From a virus, in IMG/VR virus record IMGVR_UViG_3300007609_000064, positions 1 to 31,207 of that record: a DNA stretch of 31,207 nucleotides, one strand, 5' to 3'. Position 1 is the stretch's first letter. The number at the start of each line of letters is the position of its first letter. Below, piece by piece: positions 2,181 through 27,984 of the stretch. The notes below the pieces were generated by a model. That model was given only the letters and a program-made list of their open reading frames with translations, was not told where the DNA came from and made no database searches. A program made the position numbers and the translations under genes.

Positions 2181-5100
2181 TTATACATTAAATTGATAGT
2201 TTGCAAAAAGAATGAATGTTTCGTCTGATTTGTCCAGCGACGATTTTACAATATAACGATCAATATCAAAATTTATGCTTTGGAAGTTGTAACCATTAAA
2301 ATTAATACGATTTATGATATCGTCAGCGGCTCCAGGTTTGCAATAACATAATGGTATAGCACTTACATACCCTAACTCTTGGAACCCATTTTGTGGCGTT
2401 CTCATCCATAAAGGTAAATACTCTCTATCGGTCTTGCCCAGTGTTTTTATATTTTCTCGCATATGTTCTATGCTGGAAAGATATCTCACATTATCTTTGC
2501 TTTGACTTATTTTTACAGCGTCGCTGTCTGCCTTTATTGTGTTAGTTGGCTTTGGTCTAAGGCGTTTTGTATCTGCATCCAAAATTTCCAGTGTAACACT
2601 TAAATCAGTTCCGTTTCTTAATTCTATGTCAAAATCATTATTGTCGCTGTTCACTTCTAACGTAGAATCACGAGTTTCAATAATCAGTGTGTCTTGCTTA
2701 CCTTCAAAAACAAATTTCACAGTATCACGAGTATAAATTGGAATAGCATCACCGCCCTGACCTATGGCATTAGGATCATCTATGCTAGCATACGATTGTG
2801 AATCAACTGTGATTTTGTTTCCTGTGGTTATTTCAAATCGAGAGCGTGTCTGCCCTCGGTCAGTTTCATATGGATCTATTACCGGTATATACACCACTTC
2901 GTATACTGTGTCTCTTGTACCAGGTTGCCTTGCAATTGCTTTTGTTGGTGCACCTAATTTAAACTTTTTTCGCTTATGGTTTTTAGCGGCTGCACCCACA
3001 AACTCTTCGATGTTTTTCTTTTCAATTCCGTTGTACACAATCATTTCTATTTGTGAGGCAACGCCGAATTCCGGGTCATTTGGTCTATAAATGCTGCTAG
3101 GCAAGAACACCTCGGGATCACGCAAAAAGTTTTGAATCTCTGCCCTTTTATCAGCAGATAACATAGGTTTGGCTGTGATATCTGTGTATTGAGTTTTATC
3201 ATCTTCTATAACAGTAAGGGTGAATTCCCGCTCAATTGCCACTAAATTAAACCTATCTCTTGCTTTCACAGTAAAGGTATAAGTTCTCTGTGCAAATTCA
3301 TCTGTGCCAGTATCCTCCAACGTAGGTCTTCCTATAATGTTTCCTAAATAACTGAGAACACAGCCTGCTGGGAAGTTTCCTCTTGTCACAGTGTAAAATA
3401 AGGGTTCGTTAGGTACTGTTGTTTCTGCTTGCAATTGTATAAGGCAAGGCAGATCTTTTTTGATGCTTCCTAAGTCAGAGTCTGTTATCCAACTTATATT
3501 AGAATCAATTTCTCCAATAACACGCAGTTCAAATGTTTTATTACTGCTAGGCCTAATAACCTCGTCAGTATTTGTAATCGTTATTCTTTCCTGGAAACTG
3601 TCACCTCTGAACAGAGCAAGTCCAATGTTTCTTCCTTGATTAAGTCTTAGAGGAAGATTTTTATCAAAACTCATTCTATCAAAAAACTCTTGTATTTTGG
3701 TTACCGTGAGCACAGAAGTAGAATCGCCCAATATTTCATTTGCATTTTCTTCTAGTTTGGCAATATTTTTTGTATATGTTGTTTCCTTGACGGTTAACCA
3801 CCACGTATTTGCATCTGCAACTTCTATGGAATAATCTTTGTAGAATGCTGAAGGATCAAAATTCTGTGGTAATATGTCAGCTGGTCTTTCATATGCTTCA
3901 ATGATTTGATCTAAGAAGTTTGCACTGCTGATCAAACTTAACTCAGGAGACACAATTTGATAAGTCACCATAGGAGTAATATTTTGAACCACTAATTCGT
4001 TTGAAGTGTTAAAATTGTATGTGCGTCCTATATATTCCTCACGTTGATCCTGTGGCATTCTATAAACGTAAACAAAGTCTTGTCCTATAGGTGCTGTTTC
4101 AAATACAACTACACTGCTTTTTGGAGCTAGGCTGTCGTCTAAGAATATTACATCAAAGTCAGGATCATTATTGTCTACTCCTATCACCTTATAATAAAAT
4201 CCGTTGATAAACAAATTTCGTCCAATCAATTCTACAAGATCATTTACCCCGTCAATGTCTCCGGTGAGGTCTATTTTTGCTATCTTAAATCCTGTTGCAC
4301 CGATGAATGTATCTTCGTAATAAGTGCCATTAATTATAACATCGTCTAGGTTTAAATCATAACGGGTGGCATTAACGGTAAATTTATAGTTTTTTGTAAC
4401 CGCAGGTTGATAAGGAATATATCCGTAGACTTCGCCGCTTATTCTTGATAATTCTAAGCCTGGAGGCAATTCCGACGGTGTACCATCATCATTTAAATCT
4501 TGAAGCGTATATTGTAGCACCCCTTCCAATGTTTCATCTTCTATCACATCTAAGAAAATTGTAGTATAATTGTTAGCACGCTTATATCCAAGGTCCCTAG
4601 GAGTAATCCATACTGGTGATCTAATGTGAGTGTTGTCTGCACGAAATACACCAGTATCGGCCTCCATGATAGTGTTGTCAGCTCTTAGAAAATCATCGCC
4701 TACTACATAAATTTTGAAAGAACGTTTAACAATGGTATTGCCATCTGTTACACTTACCTCGAACGGATAATATCTGTTAAGCTTTCTTAAATTTTGTGTG
4801 GCTTCAAAAAATCCGTATCCAATACTGTCGTAGAAGAATGTGCTGTATCCATTTGTTGAACGCAACCCGTAGTCAAAAATTGTGTTTTCAAAAGGAGACA
4901 TATCATATCCTCCTTGTGCATTGCGTCTATCTAAGCTGAGTAAAGGTTCGGTTGTTCCTATTATTCTGCCATCCGTGGTTAATTCTAAACCAGGAGGTAA
5001 GGATCCGCCGTCGTTGCCTATAAAATACTCCAGTTCCTCACCTGCCGCGATATCATCGTCTTGTGCAATGAGTTGAAAATTTATTAATTCGTTGTCTAGA

Positions 5101-5441
5101 ATAAAGAATGTATCGTTTGGTCCTATAGGAAGCAATCCTTGATTGGTTACCCATTTTGGATCATCAGGACCAGTTACTACCAGCTTGAAAGATCGATCAT
5201 CAAAATATCCATTTAGGTGTGCACGAACCACAAATTCAAACACAGTGTCAACCGCCACTTCGGATAGGGGTCCGCGAACAAATCCGTTAACTAGTTTTGT
5301 GTCAGGAGGTAAGGTACCGCTTATTAGCTCTAGGTCGACATCAGCATTTTCTATAGTGGGCAGTTTGATATTAATATCATTGCCTTCGACTATTTGTGCT
5401 AATTCTTGCCCATTGGGCACATTCCATAGAGGTGTTGTCAT
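2181..5441 (-). CDS. Large structural protein with Ig/cadherin-like repeats
   Basis: A 1086-residue virion-type protein. At least four segments carry the putative-Ig (He_PIG-like) signature of a Leu-Pro-Pro-Gly/Asp or Phe-Pro-Ala-Gly turn, then a short strand, then a Gly-x-Ile/Val-x-Gly turn. They start near residues 44, 148, 324 and 689, and the latter two lead into strands such as NYKFTVNATR and TYTFTVKARD. The C-terminal 100 residues (LPLWMRTPQ, ELGYVSAIPLCYCKPG, DIDRYIV) resemble a conserved end that I associate with marine T4-like structural proteins. No signal peptide or membrane segment is seen. A late-type box at 5461-5468 and AAGGGA precede the ATG. It is probably part of the baseplate, neck or tail fibres; the exact place in the particle is not deducible. 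Confidence 0.75.
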   Translation of the reverse strand: MTTPLWNVPNGQELAQIVEGNDINIKLPTIENADVDLELISGTLPPDTKLVNGFVRGPLSEVAVDTVFEFVVRAHLNGYFDDRSFKLVVTGPDDPKWVTNQGLLPIGPNDTFFILDNELINFQLIAQDDDIAAGEELEYFIGNDGGSLPPGLELTTDGRIIGTTEPLLSLDRRNAQGGYDMSPFENTIFDYGLRSTNGYSTFFYDSIGYGFFEATQNLRKLNRYYPFEVSVTDGNTIVKRSFKIYVVGDDFLRADNTIMEADTGVFRADNTHIRSPVWITPRDLGYKRANNYTTIFLDVIEDETLEGVLQYTLQDLNDDGTPSELPPGLELSRISGEVYGYIPYQPAVTKNYKFTVNATRYDLNLDDVIINGTYYEDTFIGATGFKIAKIDLTGDIDGVNDLVELIGRNLFINGFYYKVIGVDNNDPDFDVIFLDDSLAPKSSVVVFETAPIGQDFVYVYRMPQDQREEYIGRTYNFNTSNELVVQNITPMVTYQIVSPELSLISSANFLDQIIEAYERPADILPQNFDPSAFYKDYSIEVADANTWWLTVKETTYTKNIAKLEENANEILGDSTSVLTVTKIQEFFDRMSFDKNLPLRLNQGRNIGLALFRGDSFQERITITNTDEVIRPSSNKTFELRVIGEIDSNISWITDSDLGSIKKDLPCLIQLQAETTVPNEPLFYTVTRGNFPAGCVLSYLGNIIGRPTLEDTGTDEFAQRTYTFTVKARDRFNLVAIEREFTLTVIEDDKTQYTDITAKPMLSADKRAEIQNFLRDPEVFLPSSIYRPNDPEFGVASQIEMIVYNGIEKKNIEEFVGAAAKNHKRKKFKLGAPTKAIARQPGTRDTVYEVVYIPVIDPYETDRGQTRSRFEITTGNKITVDSQSYASIDDPNAIGQGGDAIPIYTRDTVKFVFEGKQDTLIIETRDSTLEVNSDNNDFDIELRNGTDLSVTLEILDADTKRLRPKPTNTIKADSDAVKISQSKDNVRYLSSIEHMRENIKTLGKTDREYLPLWMRTPQNGFQELGYVSAIPLCYCKPGAADDIINRINFNGYNFQSINFDIDRYIVKSSLDKSDETFILFANYQFNV

Positions 5442-5460
5442 TCTGCGAATCCCTTTACAG

Positions 5461-5468
5461 TATTTATT
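5461..5468 (-). promoter_or_regulatory. Late-type promoter box AATAAATA
   Basis: One mismatch from TATAAATA, 19 bases before the ATG of the 1086-aa structural gene, with AAGGGA between box and start. Confidence 0.55.
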
Positions 5469-5476
5469 GCAAAAAT

Positions 5477-6307
5477 TTAGATAGACCCGAGGTCAACAAC
5501 AAACGGAGAAGGATCTGTAATTGTACCAAAATCAATATCGTTTTGAGCAGCTAACCATTCAGTAATACTGGTAATATTATAATAAATGCCGCCAAAATCA
5601 AAATCATAAGGATCTGTGCTAGTAGGCGCTGGCGTCCATTTACTTCCATCCCATTTAAGAACATCACCCTCCAGTGCAGGTTTATTATCAACATCAAGTA
5701 AATCAGCCAGTCTGTTTTTACTGAGATTTATCACTCCAGTCACTGGGTCAAATATTAAATTTTGATTTTGGTCAAATACATTGCCCACAAAATTGCCTAT
5801 AATGGTATTTGCGTCTAATGTGCCCACTGAGGTTAAATCAAATCCTTGGGCATCTAAACTAGCTCCCAATTTAGGATCTGTGTCACTTACAAGTGCTGTG
5901 CTGCCTGTATAGCTTATTTGAAGATTGTTATCGTTTACGATGCTTGTTTCAATATCGTTTGTACCAGACACTGTTAAACTGGCAACTTCATCGAGGAACA
6001 CACTTCCGTTGTCACTGATTACTAAAAGACTTTTTACACCACCGTTTGCTTCTACTAGTATTCTATCATCGTTACTGGATAACAGAATATCTTTGCCGGC
6101 AACCAGTTTTTTGAATTGCAATTCGTAACCCAGTTTACGACCAAAGACACCTTCTCCCACTTCGCCTATGTTAGAAGCGGTTGTGCTTTCGTCGTCTCTG
6201 AGGTCAAGCTCTTGGAAGTTTAGGTTTACTTTGCGAAAGGCTTCGCGAAGATCATCGCCGGTGCCGTCATTTGCAAAGTTACCAATTTTGATTTCTTGTA
6301 AACTCAT
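5477..6307 (-). CDS. Tail fibre/baseplate-type structural protein, 276 aa
   Basis: The N-terminus (residues 5-35: IKIGNFANDGTGDDLREAF, then KVNLNFQEL) is nearly the same as the start of the 2660-residue fibre gene upstream. The two therefore share an attachment or trimerisation module. The middle is a beta-rich, Asn/Asp/Gly/Ser/Thr-rich fibre sequence. Residues around 195-225 carry the module LxDVDNKP...GDVLKWDGSKWTPAP, which recurs in other fibres of this window. AAGGAAG lies 6 bases before the ATG, and the gene follows the 182-aa gene by 9 bases, so both are probably on one late transcript. It may sit at the base of a fibre or in the baseplate wedge. Confidence 0.7.
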   Translation of the reverse strand: MSLQEIKIGNFANDGTGDDLREAFRKVNLNFQELDLRDDESTTASNIGEVGEGVFGRKLGYELQFKKLVAGKDILLSSNDDRILVEANGGVKSLLVISDNGSVFLDEVASLTVSGTNDIETSIVNDNNLQISYTGSTALVSDTDPKLGASLDAQGFDLTSVGTLDANTIIGNFVGNVFDQNQNLIFDPVTGVINLSKNRLADLLDVDNKPALEGDVLKWDGSKWTPAPTSTDPYDFDFGGIYYNITSITEWLAAQNDIDFGTITDPSPFVVDLGSI

Positions 6308-16289: not shown

Positions 16290-16557
16290 TTACACTTTTT
16301 AAATTTTCTAGTTCTGACTCACAGCGAGTTAGCTTGCGTTCTAGGACGTTTATAGCTGCTCGCTGTTTCTTTGACTGCTCCTCCAAACTGCGAACGTAAT
16401 CAACTGTGGGAATTTCTTTGTGCGATCCGTCCTCGGCAACCATCGTAAAGCGATCTACGCCTTGTGCTCGTAAACCGCCTGTTACACGATTTGGGTTTTT
16501 GTTGGATTCGTTAGGCTGGCTCTGTTTCGAGCCGTACATTTTGCTCAAGTAACTCAT
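16276..16557 (-). CDS. Coiled-coil conserved phage protein, 93 aa
   Basis: The N-terminal 30 residues are polar and disordered-looking (SKMYGSKQSQPNESNKNPN), followed by a short beta segment (RFTMVAEDGSHKEIPTVDYV). A C-terminal coiled coil covers about residues 55-90 (LEEQSKKQRAAINVLERKL and onward). AGGAG lies 6 bases before the ATG, and a perfect T4-type late box TATAAATA sits at 16575-16582. The start is inside the 3' end of the uvdE gene (47-base overlap), so the late box is embedded in uvdE. The function is unknown; the small scaffold-like architecture suggests a structural or assembly accessory. Confidence 0.7.
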   Translation of the reverse strand: MSYLSKMYGSKQSQPNESNKNPNRVTGGLRAQGVDRFTMVAEDGSHKEIPTVDYVRSLEEQSKKQRAAINVLERKLTRCESELENLKSVISRS

Positions 16558-17581
16558 TGTGTTCTCCTACAGCGTATTTATATAGTGCCATGCTGGCTAG
16601 ATTTTTGCCCTTGGCTTCTGTCATGATGTCTGCATGTTCCCAGAATTCAAGTGCCCAGTCATTACAGGCAGTGTTCCACATGTAGTCTGAATGGGCACGC
16701 AGTTTCTGCTTCTTGTAACCCCAATCCAGTAATTCTGCCATATCAGGACGTTGAGTTACAGGATGCAAATTTAAAAGGTCTTCGCGACTGAGAGAATAGT
16801 GTATTACCGGCCGACGAGCACCTCGCCAAGAGTCCATTATGCGCTTAAATCTATCTGACTGGGGCGTAATGTAATGTCCTTCACGGACCCATTCATGGTG
16901 TATATCGAGTACAAGGGCACAGTGGTCGACCAATTCGATGCTGGCGTCTGATCCCCAGCACATTTCGTCGTTTTCGATTGTGATGGTATTTCTTGCTTCG
17001 GGGCTGAGTCGCTTGAGGGCTTTTTTGATCCCTTCTGGACCTTGTCTACCTGATATGTGTACGTTGATCTTAAAATCTTGAAATGATCTACCGTAACCCA
17101 TCCACCTGGCCATATCGGCATGATATTCAAACTCCTCTATGCTTCTATTTACTATATCGGGATTGTCACTAGCAAGAACAGTAAACTGGCCAGGGTGAAA
17201 AGATAAACGAACGTCAAGCCTCCTAGCCAAGGCGCCAACCTCCGCGAACGCTCGTTCTGCATACTGGCGAACGTCCCCACGCCGCCAAAAGTAACTCCAA
17301 GTAGGTTCAGTATAAACAGGAAGACAATCACTGCCCAACCGTACCATCCTAAGTCCATGTGGTAAGTCTCCTACGTATTCTATTAGATTATAATAACTTT
17401 GAATGTTATGTTCCATCAACTCCCATAGACGCTGTTCTGCATCCTCGCGAGATTGACGGTTAAGCCATGCCACGGTTGTAGCACGAGTGTTGAAGGGACG
17501 CTGGATTTCTTCCAGCACTTTTTTCTTCTGATCTTGATCAGGGTGCATGTACTTGCATGCGAAGCCTATACGTTTTGTCAT
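16511..17581 (-). CDS. uvdE: UV-damage endonuclease UvdE family
   Basis: A 356-residue TIM-barrel UV-damage endonuclease, which nicks DNA 5' of UV photoproducts using metal ions. Family motifs are clear: RIGFACKYM at the N-terminus, LSFHPGQFTVLAS (His129), EYHADM (His154), KINVHISG (His175), TIENDEMCWG (Glu203), VLDIHHEW (Asp226, His228, His229), PVIHYSLS (His261) and LRAHSDY (His297). These are the expected metal-binding His/Asp/Glu positions, so the enzyme looks intact. Length fits the family (about 300-400). The start codon is immediately followed by the conserved RIG motif, which fixes it. In a marine phage it would repair sunlight damage. A sigma-70-like box pair lies just upstream (17588-17616). 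Confidence 0.85.
   Translation of the reverse strand: MTKRIGFACKYMHPDQDQKKKVLEEIQRPFNTRATTVAWLNRQSREDAEQRLWELMEHNIQSYYNLIEYVGDLPHGLRMVRLGSDCLPVYTEPTWSYFWRRGDVRQYAERAFAEVGALARRLDVRLSFHPGQFTVLASDNPDIVNRSIEEFEYHADMARWMGYGRSFQDFKINVHISGRQGPEGIKKALKRLSPEARNTITIENDEMCWGSDASIELVDHCALVLDIHHEWVREGHYITPQSDRFKRIMDSWRGARRPVIHYSLSREDLLNLHPVTQRPDMAELLDWGYKKQKLRAHSDYMWNTACNDWALEFWEHADIMTEAKGKNLASMALYKYAVGEHNELLEQNVRLETEPA
16575..16582 (-). promoter_or_regulatory. Perfect T4-type late promoter TATAAATA
   Basis: Exact match to the T4 late consensus on the minus strand, 17 bases before the ATG of the 93-aa coiled-coil gene, with AGGAG between. It lies within the 3' end of uvdE, so that gene would be served late independently of uvdE. 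Confidence 0.65.
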
Positions 17582-17587
17582 GCCTTT

Positions 17588-17616
17588 AGTATACTGCCTT
17601 TATTTCCAATTTGCAA
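17588..17616 (-). promoter_or_regulatory. Possible sigma-70-like promoter before uvdE
   Basis: TTGCAA (17616-17611), 17 bases, then TATACT (17593-17588), 6 bases before the uvdE ATG. There are two mismatches in the -35 and one in the -10. The predicted start falls on or next to the ATG, so it may be a chance match or give a leaderless message. Confidence 0.3.
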
Positions 17617-18337
17617 TCACCCACGGATCATTGCATTTGTGTGGATTTGGATCACCGTGAAATACGGCAATGCTGGTTTCTGGTTTAATTTCTGGCTCGC
17701 CTACATCGGCAAAGTTTCTTCCACCGCGAGGATCAAGTATCATTCTGGGACGATTGCGCATCTCCCACTTGTAGCTCTGTATCCATTCGTCTGGCCAGTA
17801 TTCGTAGTCTTCTTTAATTTTAAAACGGATCCAATCTTGATCGCCTTGAAAGCGTCGAGAATTTGTTCTAGGATCTTTCATAAACTCTTCATACACATAG
17901 CTGTGCTGTCCTGTGTCTAAACGAAAAATGCTAGAGTTAAATTTATCATAATTTGGGTTGCGACATCTGTTAAAATCGCGGATGATGCAGAACTTGCCCG
18001 GCTTATAAGTAAATAAATTATCCATATTCCTAAAGATAACCATATCCAAATCCAGAAACAGCACAGTGCCGTCTAAACCTAGATTTTTGTTAAAGAAAAA
18101 TGGTTTATACCACCAGCCCTCTACATTTTTTGTGACTGGCAGTGGCTCGATGTGAATTTGCGGATCGAGTCCTTCAGGGTCCTCAGTGAAACACACAAAG
18201 TTATAGTTTAGTGTTAGGTTTCTTTTAACCATGTTATACAATGTATTCACATAAGCAGGCGGATATTTTTTGCCATATTTTAGGCAAACTACATAACGTG
18301 GCTTTTCCAATGTGTGTTTCCTGAGTTTTTTCTTCAT
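17600..18337 (-). CDS. GT8-like glycosyltransferase
   Basis: A 245-residue GT-A fold glycosyltransferase. The metal- and nucleotide-sugar-binding DxD is in LFLDLDMVIF (Asp96, Asp98), directly preceded by a WWYKPFFFNK segment. QGDQDW at 164-169 and FHGDPNPHK at 227-235 are the other parts of the family active site. Sugar donor and acceptor cannot be told; possible targets are host surface glycans, a virion protein or modified DNA. The ATG overlaps the TAA of the upstream QueD-like gene, with AAGG just before, so the two are co-translated. Marine phage genomes often carry such genes. Confidence 0.75.
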   Translation of the reverse strand: MKKKLRKHTLEKPRYVVCLKYGKKYPPAYVNTLYNMVKRNLTLNYNFVCFTEDPEGLDPQIHIEPLPVTKNVEGWWYKPFFFNKNLGLDGTVLFLDLDMVIFRNMDNLFTYKPGKFCIIRDFNRCRNPNYDKFNSSIFRLDTGQHSYVYEEFMKDPRTNSRRFQGDQDWIRFKIKEDYEYWPDEWIQSYKWEMRNRPRMILDPRGGRNFADVGEPEIKPETSIAVFHGDPNPHKCNDPWVIANWK

Positions 18338-18921
18338 TAACCTTGAAGTCTTTCTATGGCATCAAGTGGTGCTTCGTACTCCCAGCGAGACTTCATAGGA
18401 AGAGCTTCACCCGAAGGCATTTTCCACTGTGCGTCCGCTTTAGCAGTAGTTTCATCTACTTCTACCATTGCATCATTGCGATCATGTTCGTACACACGAA
18501 CACGTTCCACGTAACAACGTCCGTTTGTTATCTTGTATATATAATGATTGACATGTTCCCAAATGAACAGTGAACTCATTTCCATTGATACACCGCTTGG
18601 CAATACTCGAAGTGTTCCTAACAATCCACCAGTATCTGTCATTGTGTGCGGAATATCTCCAATTCTGGGATCATCCGCAGGTAACACAGTGACATGATCG
18701 AAGTAATATTCCAAGAACTGTTTAACAGGAGCTAAACCACCAAACGGAACTATCCATCCGTGTTCATCTACATCGCCTGCAAATGTGAATTCTACTGAGC
18801 GATCATAACCGTGCACTTGAGCACAGTGTCCGGGAGTGCCATCTGCATTTGCATCAAAATACTGTGCATGTCCGCATGGTAAATTATTATATACTTTTGT
18901 GCTTTTAACTTTAATACCCAT
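18337..18921 (-). CDS. QueD/PTPS-family (6-pyruvoyl-tetrahydropterin synthase-like) protein
   Basis: A 194-residue protein with a T-fold pterin-enzyme pattern. LPCGHAQYF gives the first zinc His (His18), GHCAQVHGYD gives Cys33 and His37, FDHVTVL gives the Asp75-His76 dyad, and VRVYEHD gives Glu145, which would anchor the pterin. In QueD/PTPS the Cys-loop normally reads HGH, but here the second zinc His is Tyr39 (HGY), so zinc binding may be altered. Family members make 6-carboxy-tetrahydropterin for queuosine/7-deazaguanine, or tetrahydrobiopterin; the product here is unproven. GAGGAGG and a perfect late box TATAAATA (18958-18965) lie upstream. It heads a short operon with the glycosyltransferase. 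Confidence 0.7.
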   Translation of the reverse strand: MGIKVKSTKVYNNLPCGHAQYFDANADGTPGHCAQVHGYDRSVEFTFAGDVDEHGWIVPFGGLAPVKQFLEYYFDHVTVLPADDPRIGDIPHTMTDTGGLLGTLRVLPSGVSMEMSSLFIWEHVNHYIYKITNGRCYVERVRVYEHDRNDAMVEVDETTAKADAQWKMPSGEALPMKSRWEYEAPLDAIERLQG

Positions 18922-19082: not shown

Positions 19083-22079
19083 ATGCCAGCAGCATTTTTC
19101 GATTTTTTTAGAAAGGTTGTTCTCAAGTCGCCAGACGGTTCAACTATTGAGACAGTTATTGAAGCGGACAGTTTCACTGATGAACTGAATATTGTGAGAG
19201 GTCCTGGAGTGGCTTTTAACGGCGACGATGAATCAGACACATTTGAAATTAATGTAGACTACGATTTATCTATACCTGTTGACACCACGGATCTTACCCT
19301 CACAGACATTAATGGAAACACCAGCTCTATCAATTTAGTGCAAGGTGAAGATATTATTCTTACCAGGGTTAACAGCAACACGATAAGAATTGATGCGTCT
19401 AATGTGACCATTGAAATTACCAATATATCTCTAGCTAATCCAATTCAGGTTACAACTTTAGTAGCTCATCAGCTAGTAAACGGAGCCGAGATAACCATTC
19501 AGGATGTTCTAGGAACAACAGAACTGAACGGTAATAGTTACTTCGTTGATGTAATAGACAGTAATAATTTTACACTGTATTCCGATGAAGATTTAACCAC
19601 CCCAATTGATGGAACCACAGGATTTACTTCTTATAGTAGTGGAGGCACCATTCAGGTGCAGAATGTTGCCACTTTAACAGGATTGTTGGACGTTGATATT
19701 GACAATGTTCAAGAAGAAGACGCATTTGTTTATAGAGGCGGACGTTGGATTAACACTGACACTTTGAGTATATCCAGCTTGACTGCGGATTTAACTTCTG
19801 ATAGTCTTCAAGCAATTTCAGATTTAACTATTACCAGCGCCTTTGGCGGGTCTGTTTCTATTACTAACGGTTTTACCACGCAGATTTCTTTAACTCATGA
19901 CACCGGCAATATATCACTGGATGCAGGAAGCACAGTAGAAATTGCTACCACCGACGGGGATATTTTAGTAGGTAATGGTTCAAATACTGTGAGTTTCAAC
20001 AATGGAACCACTGTAGATTTTGCAAATACAACAATTGTAAACGCTGCAATCACAGGCTCATTGACAGGAAATGCTGATACTGCTACTGCCTTGGAAACCG
20101 CAAGGAATATAGGTGGAGTAAGTTTTGACGGTACGGCCGACATCAACTTGCCAGGTGTAAATGCCCAAGGAAATCAAGACACTACTGGAAATGCTGCAAC
20201 CGCAACTGCTCTAGAAACTGCGAGAGATTTCAGCATTACTGGCGGCGGCATAACCGCAACTGCTCAAACATTTGACGGTACTGGAAACATCGTGCTGAAT
20301 GCCAGCGTTGATAACAACAGCATCGAGTTGGGCACCAAGACAACTGGTAATTATGTAGCAACTATCACTGGTGCATCTGGACAAATTGAAGTTACAGGAA
20401 GTGGAACAGAGACCGCCGCTATAACACTAGGGCTACCTAATAATGTGGTTATTCCTAATGATTTGTCTGTCAACGGAGATTTAAATGTTTACGGAAGTGT
20501 AACTTCCATTGAAACCACAAATACCACTATCGCTGATAACATCATAATGCTTAACAGCAATGTCACAAACAATGTTAACGACAGCGGGATAATCATAGAA
20601 CGTGGAGCTGCTGGCGATAATGCAATCATAGCCTGGGACGAATCTGATGATAAATGGATTCTTGGCACAACGACTGCGAATGATGTAAGTGTTGGAGATT
20701 TGACAATAACACCTGCCACGCTGGTAGTTGACAGTATTGAAACTATACAAAGTTTTAGTGGCAACGTAGTTGGTGATATTACCTCAAGCGGCACATCACT
20801 GTTTAATGACATAGAAGTTTCAGGAAATTTCACTGTAGATGCTGTTCAAGGTGATGTAACAGGAAATGTGCAAGGAGACGTATTAGGAGCTGATTCTGCA
20901 ATTTTGGTTGATGGCACCAATAGACAGTTTATAGGAGCAGCTGATACAGCAGATGCTTTTACTACTCCTGTAACAATTACACTTGATGGAGATATTACAG
21001 GACCTGACGTGGTTTTAGACGGTGCAACCAGCAATATCACATTTGAAGCAAATGTTGTAAACGACAGCCATGAACACACTGTTGCGTTTATCACTGATTT
21101 CCAGACTGGAGTTGAAAACAGTTTTGACACACTTATAACTAACGGTACACAAGCTAATGGCATTACTTTTGCAATAGACAAACCAAATGATGCTCTAAAT
21201 GTGTCGCTAGCAACGCCTACTCTTAATTTAACGAACACAGTAGGGGCAGGTATAACTGGATCTGCCACTTTGGATTTAAGTGGAACGATTAATATCGAAA
21301 CTGAATTTGATGGTGAAATTGCTTTAGGCACTAATACTTCTGGTAGCTATGTAGAAAGTTTAGTTGCAGGCACAGGAATCGCACTGGCAAACAACAGTGG
21401 AGAATCGGCAACTCCTACAATTTCTGTTTCTAATATTCCAACTACAGAGCTTAACACGCCTTATATTATTTTAAACGACCAGAGCAACACTGAACAGGTG
21501 GACTTAGGAGAACAGCTAGATTTGATCGGTGCAGACCAGATCGAAATAACTGTTAGCAATCCAAACATTCTCACAATAGGGCACGGAACCAGCGGAGTTT
21601 CAGCCGCAACTTACGGCGGTACAAGCAATTTGGTTTCTATTACTGTTGATGCAGAAGGACATATTACTAGCCTATCAGATGAAGTATTTCCTAGTCCTAC
21701 CGTAACTTTTGATCCAGCCGGACAGGTGATAGGAAGTTTCACCCTTGCAAATCTTGCAGGAACATCTACCCAGCTTGCTCTTAATGCTAATCTAGATGAT
21801 TTGATAGATGTAGTTGTGCCAACACCTTCGGACGGAGACATCCTTGTTTACAACGGCGGAACTTCAAGATGGGTAAACACAGGTACTATAAATAACGACA
21901 TTAAAGGATCTGTTTTCAGTGATGCTAGCGATTTACTAGTTGACGGCGTTAACGGAGAGTTAGTTTATAATCCAGGTAATCCCAGTGACTGGAACGGTAC
22001 GGCTCCTACCACGGTAGGCGAAGCACTGGATAGATTAGCGGCTTGGATTACTGCAAATGGAGGAGCTGGATCACCTTAA
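19083..22079 (+). CDS. Tail fibre protein, 998 aa
   Basis: The only long plus-strand gene. It is a beta-rich, Asn/Thr/Gly/Asp-rich fibre without Cys. Visible parts: N-terminal ELNIVRGPGVAF region; a TLTGLLDVDIDNV...FVYRGGRWINT module (about residues 198-226); two copies of TGNAxTATALETAR (nt about 20065-20106 and 20182-20227), with the phage-fibre phrase GVSFDGTADINLPGVN between them; a SVNGDLNVYGSVTSIETTNT strand block; a second LDDLIDVVVPTPSDGDILVYNGG module near the end; and a C-terminal VGEALDRLAAWI helix. No enzyme domain is seen. AGGAG (19072-19076) and a late-type AATAAATA box precede the ATG. It probably encodes a host-recognition fibre. Confidence 0.75.
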   Translation: MPAAFFDFFRKVVLKSPDGSTIETVIEADSFTDELNIVRGPGVAFNGDDESDTFEINVDYDLSIPVDTTDLTLTDINGNTSSINLVQGEDIILTRVNSNTIRIDASNVTIEITNISLANPIQVTTLVAHQLVNGAEITIQDVLGTTELNGNSYFVDVIDSNNFTLYSDEDLTTPIDGTTGFTSYSSGGTIQVQNVATLTGLLDVDIDNVQEEDAFVYRGGRWINTDTLSISSLTADLTSDSLQAISDLTITSAFGGSVSITNGFTTQISLTHDTGNISLDAGSTVEIATTDGDILVGNGSNTVSFNNGTTVDFANTTIVNAAITGSLTGNADTATALETARNIGGVSFDGTADINLPGVNAQGNQDTTGNAATATALETARDFSITGGGITATAQTFDGTGNIVLNASVDNNSIELGTKTTGNYVATITGASGQIEVTGSGTETAAITLGLPNNVVIPNDLSVNGDLNVYGSVTSIETTNTTIADNIIMLNSNVTNNVNDSGIIIERGAAGDNAIIAWDESDDKWILGTTTANDVSVGDLTITPATLVVDSIETIQSFSGNVVGDITSSGTSLFNDIEVSGNFTVDAVQGDVTGNVQGDVLGADSAILVDGTNRQFIGAADTADAFTTPVTITLDGDITGPDVVLDGATSNITFEANVVNDSHEHTVAFITDFQTGVENSFDTLITNGTQANGITFAIDKPNDALNVSLATPTLNLTNTVGAGITGSATLDLSGTINIETEFDGEIALGTNTSGSYVESLVAGTGIALANNSGESATPTISVSNIPTTELNTPYIILNDQSNTEQVDLGEQLDLIGADQIEITVSNPNILTIGHGTSGVSAATYGGTSNLVSITVDAEGHITSLSDEVFPSPTVTFDPAGQVIGSFTLANLAGTSTQLALNANLDDLIDVVVPTPSDGDILVYNGGTSRWVNTGTINNDIKGSVFSDASDLLVDGVNGELVYNPGNPSDWNGTAPTTVGEALDRLAAWITANGGAGSP

Positions 22080-26987: not shown

Positions 26988-27016
26988 ATTATATTACGGG
27001 CGGGGGAGAATGTCAA
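26988..27016 (-). promoter_or_regulatory. Perfect sigma-70 promoter TTGACA-N17-TATAAT
   Basis: On the minus strand, TTGACA (27016-27011) and TATAAT (26993-26988) are separated by exactly 17 bases, a full match to the bacterial housekeeping consensus. The -35 box overlaps the hemE stop codon (27015-27013). The predicted transcription start is near 26981, giving a leader of about 36 bases with AGGAG before the ligase ATG at 26945. It is a strong early-promoter candidate for the ligase and the genes after it. Confidence 0.8.
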
Positions 27017-27984
27017 CTAAAAGTGGATCGTATCTTGTCAACAAACTGGTGAACATGTTTTTCGGGGGTATTCTTGTTTATGCCGTGGCCTAGTCCACAC
27101 ACCCACCCTGTGCGATCAAGTTCTTGCATTTGACCACAAAACTGATCCAGTTGGCGTTCAAATCTATCCGTGGGATATAGCAGATAGTTTTCATTGAAGT
27201 TGCCCTGTACAAATCCCTGTGTGAAGTTGCCCATAACTTGGCTTATATCAACGGCACTGTCTACGCCTACTCCTCCCCAATACTTGTTTAACACCAGTGG
27301 GGTAATATCTGTGGTAAGTCCTTTACAGTAATATGCTACATCGTAGCTGGTAAGCTCATTTAGCAGATGCGTGTATGTTTCTTTTAGATATGTTCTGCCC
27401 AGTCTGTCTAGTCCGCTGTCGATCACCAATACTTTTTGTGCGCCTGCTTCTAATTGCAGAATAATCTGTTCTTTTATTAAGGGTAACACAACTGCTTTTA
27501 GGTATCTGTCTTTGAAATCAACTGGAGCCCGTTCTTCCACACCGTATGTCATCATGGTCCAGGGGCCGCCCACAAATCCTATTAGACTTTTATCGCTGGG
27601 AAGCACGGCGCGAGTAGCCTTGACTGCATCGCCTTGGAACTTGAGGAAATCCACCGCACGTTCTAAATCCATATAGCGTTCATGATTGTCCGGCGACACT
27701 TTCTCTTCAAACTGAGGTCCCGGATTGTACTGTAAATTTAAACCTAACCCTTCGAACGGAAACAGAATGTCACTGAACAGAATGCTTACGTCAAAGTCAA
27801 ATTCTTGGATGGGTCCTAAAGCAACCTCTGCGGCCAGTTCCGGCGTTTTGCACAGCTCTTCAAATGTGTGCTTTTCTTTTAGATTTTGGTAGTGCGAATG
27901 GTATCTACCAGCTTGACGCATCATCCATATAGGAGGACAATCCTGGGCTACGCGATTACAGGCATTTGAAAATTTTTCGTTCAT
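27013..27984 (-). CDS. hemE: Uroporphyrinogen decarboxylase (HemE)
   Basis: HemE converts uroporphyrinogen III to coproporphyrinogen III by four decarboxylations in the cytosol, the step that commits tetrapyrrole flux to heme and chlorophyll. At 323 residues it is slightly shorter than cellular enzymes (about 340-360). Key residues by comparison with the human enzyme are all present: Arg23 and Arg27 (MRQAGRY; human Arg37/Arg41), Asp72 (LFSDIL; Asp86), Tyr147 (GPWTMMTYGVE; Tyr164), Ser190 (Ser219) and His300 (LGHGI; His339). The Gly-rich loop after the Tyr motif, usually EGGGS, is replaced by EERAP. The N-terminus is family-like, so ATG 27984 stands, though no clear Shine-Dalgarno precedes it. 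The neighbours are phage genes, making this an auxiliary metabolic gene. Confidence 0.9.
   Translation of the reverse strand: MNEKFSNACNRVAQDCPPIWMMRQAGRYHSHYQNLKEKHTFEELCKTPELAAEVALGPIQEFDFDVSILFSDILFPFEGLGLNLQYNPGPQFEEKVSPDNHERYMDLERAVDFLKFQGDAVKATRAVLPSDKSLIGFVGGPWTMMTYGVEERAPVDFKDRYLKAVVLPLIKEQIILQLEAGAQKVLVIDSGLDRLGRTYLKETYTHLLNELTSYDVAYYCKGLTTDITPLVLNKYWGGVGVDSAVDISQVMGNFTQGFVQGNFNENYLLYPTDRFERQLDQFCGQMQELDRTGWVCGLGHGINKNTPEKHVHQFVDKIRSTFS

Follow-up and report, generated by a model that had tools for sequence, protein, structure and literature searches.

An HGY variant of QueD in phages and its association with genes of 7-deazaguanine DNA modification

The QueD-like gene in the window

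The stretch of DNA analyzed here, which we refer to as the window, is the virus record IMGVR_UViG_3300007609_000064 (31,207 bases). On its minus strand it contains a gene of the PTPS family, identified by its open reading frame, Pfam, PHROG and an AlphaFold2 model, with a second gene immediately downstream:

18337..18921, minus strand: QueD-like (PTPS family) gene, HGY variant, 194 amino acids
18928..18934, minus strand: GAGGAGG, by its look a ribosome-binding site, upstream of the queD ATG
17600..18337, minus strand: glycosyltransferase (phrog_1962, E 5e-26)

The queD frame opens with an ATG at 18921 and closes with a stop codon whose last base is 18337, with 194 uninterrupted codons before the stop, and the plus strand over the same stretch contains many stops. 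The end of queD overlaps the start of the glycosyltransferase gene in the sequence TAATG, in which one base, the second A, is common to both. Comparison with seven relatives (eight were tried, and one was saturated) gave a dN/dS of 0.05-0.10, i.e., the window gene is under purifying selection.

Several neighboring genes were also recorded. A UvdE-type UV endonuclease is encoded at 16511-17581 (minus strand), and is kept downstream of queD and the glycosyltransferase gene in this genomic context. Upstream of queD is a 998-aa open reading frame on the plus strand (19083-22079), at a place where 24 relatives have a 199-aa gene (phrog_30607). A homologue of HemE (uroporphyrinogen decarboxylase) at 27013-27984 (minus strand; E 4e-59) looks unusual for a phage: IMG/VR has only four relatives, at 49-51% identity, and no match in the phage collection exceeds 30% identity. 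For the 2OG oxygenase that a preliminary description of this locus had placed nearby, the Pfam match in the window is a weak one, at 17.3 bits where the cut-off is 27.

The protein belongs to the PTPS family, as the preliminary description had proposed: it matches PF01242 at 51.9 bits, against a gathering cut-off of 22.4 (E 9e-14), and the QueD-like family phrog_2389 at E 3e-29. Prediction of its structure from the single sequence reached a pLDDT of only 33.8, and we used instead an AlphaFold2 model built from an 85-row alignment (pLDDT 94.8). This predicted structure is consistent with the PTPS T-fold, with QueD/PTPS structures matching it at Z 11.5-14.4 and the next family at 8.1; the match to E. 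coli QueD (PDB 4ntm) has a Z of 12.8, with 118 of its 120 residues aligned at 1.8 Å.

In E. coli QueD the zinc is held by three His ligands, and the window protein departs from this arrangement. The equivalents of the three zinc ligands are His18, His37 and Tyr39, and the protein does not reach the cut-off of the NCBIfam QueD equivalog TIGR03367 (28.9 against 89.25 bits). The residues expected of the catalytic Cys, the Asp-His pair and the anchor Glu are all present (Cys33, Asp75-His76 and Glu145). Every residue named in the preliminary description is in its stated place, with one zinc His replaced by Tyr39 and the other catalytic residues kept; His18, Glu114 and His146 are additions of the present analysis. 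The signature motif of QueD (PTPS-I), as given in the available part of PMC5041015, is CxxxHGH, where the window protein reads CAQVHGY. We conclude that this is a PTPS family member that is probably QueD-like in its working, yet cannot be filed as QueD by its signature.

Conservation of the active site and a virus-only branch

An alignment of 169 rows, 168 of which have a residue at Cys33, His37 and Tyr39, was used to count conservation. The row set was built by an IMG/VR scan with the window protein, two further profile scans, and one scan with the QueD of phage Iggy. In the window, the motif CAQVHGYD contains Cys33, His37 and Tyr39, FDH contains Asp75-His76, and YEH contains Glu145-His146; we take Cys33, Asp75-His76 and Glu145 to have the roles of catalytic Cys, catalytic Asp-His and pterin anchor. 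The positions, with their window codons and conservation, are as follows:

18868..18870, minus strand: His18 (CAT), corresponding to the first zinc His; of 169 rows, 74 have His, 93 Phe and 1 Tyr, and 1 has a gap
18826..18828, minus strand: His32, immediately preceding the catalytic Cys; His in every one of the 94 rows without His18
18823..18825, minus strand: Cys33 (TGT), equivalent of the catalytic Cys; 168 of 168
18811..18813, minus strand: His37 (CAC), equivalent of the second zinc His; 168 of 168
18805..18807, minus strand: Tyr39 (TAT), replacing the third zinc His; Tyr in 166 of 168, His in 2 of 168
18694..18699, minus strand: Asp75-His76 (GAT, CAT), catalytic pair; 169 of 169
18580..18582, minus strand: Glu114, invariant; 169 of 169
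18484..18489, minus strand: Glu145 (GAA; pterin-anchor equivalent) and His146 (CAT); Glu in 169 of 169, His in 165, Thr in 3 and Gln in 1 of 169

Tyr39 formed part of none of the scan patterns, and its presence in 166 of 168 rows demonstrates that Tyr39 is a fixed feature of a large group and not a private mutation of the window protein, as might have been supposed from that protein alone. The motif reads HGY without exception in the 51 relatives from the first IMG/VR scan that cover it (52 loci, with locus L053 a fragment), and the two HGH rows among the 168 are canonical phage QueDs, those of 9g and PA5oct gp230.

Changes at two other positions accompany Tyr39. His146 is absent from four of the 169 rows, namely the two HGH rows and one HGY row, which have Thr, and one row with Gln; this count is partly selected, since the E-H stretch was part of the later scan patterns and of one of the six first-scan patterns. 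Among the HGY proteins that are the window's own or matches found by tblastn in GenBank, 13 of 13 read EH. About half of the HGY branch lacks His18 and then always has His32 beside Cys33, whereas His32 is present in only 20 of the 72 HGY rows that keep His18; PA5oct gp226 has both. If His18 and His32 are able to replace each other, this is the pattern to be expected, yet the loss of His18 has one origin on the tree, and the 94 of 94 therefore represents one evolutionary event and not 94. Positions 39, 146 and 18/32 appear to be linked, and the metal site gives the impression of having been rebuilt and not simply broken, with His32 and His146 as candidate suppliers of the third ligand.

A tree of 65 rows placed the 40 HGY proteins on one side of a branch with support of 100/100, although the motif columns were included in this tree and some of the HGH end branches are long. 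The phage HGH proteins of 9g, Dp-1 and PA5oct (gp230) group on it with cellular HGH proteins, the Phe18 proteins form a sister group inside the HGY branch, and PA5oct gp226 is an unresolved early offshoot of that branch. As a cellular control, we found a PTPS match in 22 of 148 genomes of one bacterial phylum. Twenty of these are cellular, and all read HGH and E-T; of the other two, one is HGY and lies on a virus-like contig (L277/L283), and one has no HGx motif. A scan of cellular genome contigs with strict window-type patterns, which may miss Phe18 types in cells, returned 21 stretches with one relative. Judged from these sequences, the HGY QueDs form a branch of the PTPS family that is confined to viruses, of which the window gene is one sample. 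Phage PA5oct encodes two QueD-like proteins, one canonical with HGH and one with HGY (L056:2694-3212 and 4989-5459), and so offers an internal comparison.

Two readings of the metal site itself were weighed. The first is that of an ordinary zinc enzyme, in which Tyr39 would be the third zinc ligand (His18-His37-Tyr39), with the chemistry the same and the rest of our explanation kept. Tyrosine is able to bind zinc, and in the window's clade His18 and His37 are kept and Tyr39 is invariant. However, the Phe18 sister group, which has no His18, still keeps Tyr39, and a simple swap of one ligand leaves the accompanying His146 unexplained; we regard this reading as less likely than not. The second is a refitted site with a different metal or none, where another metal, or Tyr39 as an acid/base, would do the job of zinc. 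The model for such a role of Tyr39 is dihydroneopterin aldolase, a metal-free T-fold enzyme. Consistent with a refitted site, the Phe18 group has lost two of the three zinc His with its other catalytic residues kept, Tyr39 goes together with His146, and QueD2 of Acinetobacter baumannii, a paralog that tolerates metal replacement, is the closest protein of solved structure in the profile search. The invariant His32 in all Phe18 proteins nevertheless suggests that the ligand has moved and was not abandoned, and we consider this second reading rather unlikely.

Genomic contexts and pathway partners

Comparison of 53 loci (the 52 IMG/VR loci and the window) revealed two contexts for queD. In the window-type context, queD is followed by a glycosyltransferase (a cluster present in 26 of 53 loci) and the UvdE endonuclease (27 of 53). 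In the second context there is no glycosyltransferase, and queD is accompanied by queE in 18 loci, by folE in 20 and by a phosphoribosyltransferase in 11. The glycosyltransferase company noted at the outset marks one genomic context and not the pathway. These counts bear on whether the protein could instead act with the adjoining glycosyltransferase in a sugar or surface-glycan pathway and have no part in DNA modification. The frequency of the glycosyltransferase cluster would fit such a role, as would the DAHP-synthase-family and phosphomannomutase-like genes found beside queD in 5 of the 53 loci each, but the same protein lies beside queE/folE with no glycosyltransferase at other loci, and two longer records with the window's context (G010 and G031) carry folE, queE, DpdL-like and TGT-like genes elsewhere. 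We judge a glycan role very improbable.

A pathway gene was present within 3 kb of queD, or less at contig ends, for 44 of 68 His18 proteins, 63 of 84 Phe18 proteins, the one Tyr18 protein and the one fragment (154 distinct proteins). For example, in phage pf16, whose HGY protein is 58% identical to that of the window, queE, folE, a DpdA2-like gene, queF and queC lie within about 7 kb, and the loci L046-L049 together contain queE, queD, folE, a DpdA3-like gene, a formyltransferase gene, queF and queC in one run. In pf16, Iggy, RHEph04, MiCath and HD01, the HGY gene is the only annotated QueD near queE, queC and folE in the stretch shown. This company argues against a catalytically dead or regulatory paralog, as do the invariance of the other catalytic residues and the low dN/dS given above; the loss of a zinc His, and a PA5oct genome that also keeps a canonical HGH copy, are what such a paralog would predict, and we think it improbable.

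Three further observations were made at these loci. In several phages, queE and folE have a phosphoribosyltransferase gene between them (L019:3867-4361; L325:5840-6235), as they do in Flavobacterium phage immuto. A formyltransferase gene, which we take to be a DpdN candidate, occurs beside DpdA3-like and queF genes (L046:3905-4411; L325:8948-9475). Finally, phrog_5949, which is labelled GTP cyclohydrolase, looks like QueF (L054:16206-17150; L046:4668-5585), and TIGR03138 matches its pf16 member at E 1e-63, a score under the cut-off of that model.

The genes that the preliminary description had proposed to look for in the rest of the genome (folE, queC, queE and dpdA) were searched for in 34 records: the window, pf16, I1_18 and 31 of the 52 relatives from IMG/VR. 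We found folE in 15 of 34 records and strong queE matches (E < 1e-36; weaker radical-SAM matches were left out) in 16 of 34, with queE present in 14 of the 15 folE records. Strong queC was found in 2 of 34 (eight matches in all, with six weak and partial ones left out). A small QueD-like protein, phrog_17812 (e.g., L051:4395-4739, and 13 other records), was present in 14 of 34; by eye it resembles the C-terminal motif of QueD, and by resemblance we take it to be DpdL-like. It occurs in 13 of the 15 folE records, and is absent from exactly the two that have strong queC. A transglycosylase-like gene was identified in all 15 folE records: a new TGT-like type in 8, DpdA3 in 6 and DpdA2 in 1 (pf16). 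Over all 34 records, the new type was found in 10, a DpdA2-like gene in pf16, and a DpdA3-like gene in 6, five of them strong with one query and G029 at E 4.8e-6 with the same query; G029 carries a DpdA3-like cluster 58% identical to a Flavobacterium phage ‘DNA guanine transglycosylase’. These gene sets support the link to 7-deazaguanine DNA modification that had been raised as possible. Separately, six records (G001, G002, G003, G004, G007 and G031) each have 4-11 matches to the QueE radical-SAM profile, most of them weak and away from queD, which points to numerous radical-SAM proteins in a single phage.

The new TGT-like proteins are 490-530 amino acids long, contain the motif DSGGFQ, and are encoded near the DpdL-like gene; the protein of 510-530 amino acids identified beside that gene also contains LQG, GWSMGG, HFLG and FDCASP. 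Examples of the family are:

L103:12224-13813, minus strand: TGT-like gene
L106:1841-3370: TGT-like gene
L105:3-1226: TGT-like gene
G031 58845-60371: TGT-like gene
G018 316-1860: TGT-like gene

Their profile matches DpdA2 at E 1.6e-5 (probability 79%, 173 columns), DpdA3 at E 0.0016 (16%) and DpdA1 at E 0.096 (0.6%). No Pfam match was found at E 10 for this family or for the DpdA2/3-like controls, and a PDB sequence search with the TGT-like protein found no TGT. PF01702 matched none of 16 records, including those with DpdA2/3-like genes; it is blind to these phage enzymes, and its absence proves nothing. Proteins of phages PA5oct, Phosso and PhiXhv that are related to the TGT-like ones are annotated as hypothetical. 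This family may be an undescribed DpdA type. Before it was recognized, the lack of DpdA1/2/3 profile matches in G031 and G022 had led us to consider insertion independent of DpdA, by the phosphoribosyltransferase in the queE-folE gap, an explanation that was dropped once the DSGGFQ protein turned up beside the DpdL-like gene.

The window itself, at 31 kb, contains no folE, queE, queC, DpdL-like or transglycosylase-like gene, as first reported for queuosine partners, and many records of its type likewise lack them. Two longer records with the window's context account for this. In G010, queE and folE are at 3.3-5.3 kb and queD at 61.9-62.5 kb; in G031, they are at 51.2-53.0 kb and 109.4-110.0 kb, i.e., about 57 kb apart in both, so that a 31-kb fragment that includes queD is too short to reach them. 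Among close relatives that lack the partners, the longest (G002; 155 kb, 84% identical) has none of the pathway genes, but it also lacks a DNA polymerase and almost all of the stretch corresponding to 48-72 kb of G031, which bears the partners, and we read it as an incomplete record. G018, also of the window's context, starts inside the partner region, with the TGT-like gene followed by DNA polymerase at 3,032-5,701. In the 10 records whose polymerase is of this close type, the TGT-like gene is present in 10, the DpdL-like gene in 9 and folE in 8. It is likely that the window's own phage carries the partner set outside this fragment.

Proposed role of the HGY branch and comparison with known systems

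In the pathway as described in the available parts of PMC13329287 and PMC6884629, FolE produces dihydroneopterin triphosphate, QueD converts this to 6-carboxytetrahydropterin, QueE forms 7-carboxy-7-deazaguanine, and QueC forms preQ0. The residues, the fold and the gene company set out above suggest, with a probability that we put at about three in four, that the HGY branch protein is a working phage QueD that feeds 7-deazaguanine DNA modification with changed metal ligands, its activity, its metal and the product base all being inferred. The HGY QueD would convert dihydroneopterin triphosphate from FolE to 6-carboxytetrahydropterin, from which QueE would form 7-carboxy-7-deazaguanine; the small DpdL-like protein or QueC would then alter the base, and a DpdA/TGT-like transglycosylase would exchange the altered base for guanine in the phage DNA. 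In the enzyme, the third zinc His would have become Tyr39, nearly always together with Thr to His at 146, and the first ligand would be either His18 or His32. One idea is a mixed complex of the HGY QueD and the small DpdL-like protein, the latter supplying an HxH site. The phosphoribosyltransferase may salvage the guanine freed by base exchange.

HGY genes are often accompanied by queE, whose enzyme depends on the usual product of QueD, and this product is therefore the simplest expectation for them. Of the altered metal use or new reaction suggested in the preliminary description, the change of ligand is borne out, whereas the new reaction is weakened by this company. We are aware of no assay of an HGY protein. 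The QueD of phage 9g was considered as proof of HGY activity and rejected, since it is a canonical HGH protein, like that of Dp-1, and says nothing for HGY enzymes. According to the available part of PMC6884629, this 9g protein was shown to replace E. coli queD, and the host of phage Rosebush is without preQ0 genes.

A bolder form of this proposal, which we regard as speculative and unlikely, would be a virus-only QueD that abandoned the three-His zinc site by linked changes, with a non-zinc metal or metal-free tyrosine chemistry driving 6-carboxytetrahydropterin synthesis; if true, phages would be freed from host zinc at this step of infection. QueD is a textbook zinc enzyme whose signature motif is used for annotation, and the existence of a large virus-only branch that lacks this motif and lies among 7-deazaguanine genes implies that phage QueDs are under-called by models specific for QueD. 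The HGY branch also provides a natural experiment for learning which features of the metal site are required by the reaction. Modified DNA would be expected from it in uncultured T4-like phages, and it draws attention to a transglycosylase-like family that Pfam and PHROGs did not name in this analysis. A literature search limited to titles, abstract openings and text passages returned no report of an HGY QueD, a partial coverage that makes this weak evidence of novelty. What is new is the coupled remodelling of the metal site, together with the tie to DNA modification genes, and not one odd residue.

Compared with E. coli QueD (PTPS-I; PDB 4ntk/4ntm), the window protein is alike in its T-fold, catalytic Cys, Asp-His pair, anchor Glu and two of three zinc His, and its HGY relatives are alike in their folE/queE gene company; it differs in that the motif reads HGY in place of HGH, the anchor Glu is followed by His and not by Thr, and the C-terminal part is longer. 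The best PDB profile match, QueD2 of A. baumannii (PDB 7v0f; E 5e-13), is cellular and differs in reading HGH in the aligned stretch SIHGHS. The family phrog_2389 mixes both types, with PA5oct gp230 (HGH) and Iggy (HGY) both matching it. DpdL, DpdN and DpdA3 were reportedly described by Cui et al. in 2023; DpdL-like, formyltransferase and DpdA3-like genes accompany HGY QueDs, where we use these names by resemblance. With the phage FolE-QueD-QueE-QueC-DpdA system, as presented in the available part of PMC6884629, pf16 and its relatives share the gene set, whereas in window-type phages a DpdL-like gene replaces queC, and the TGT-like protein is one that our own DpdA1, DpdA2 and DpdA3 profiles miss.
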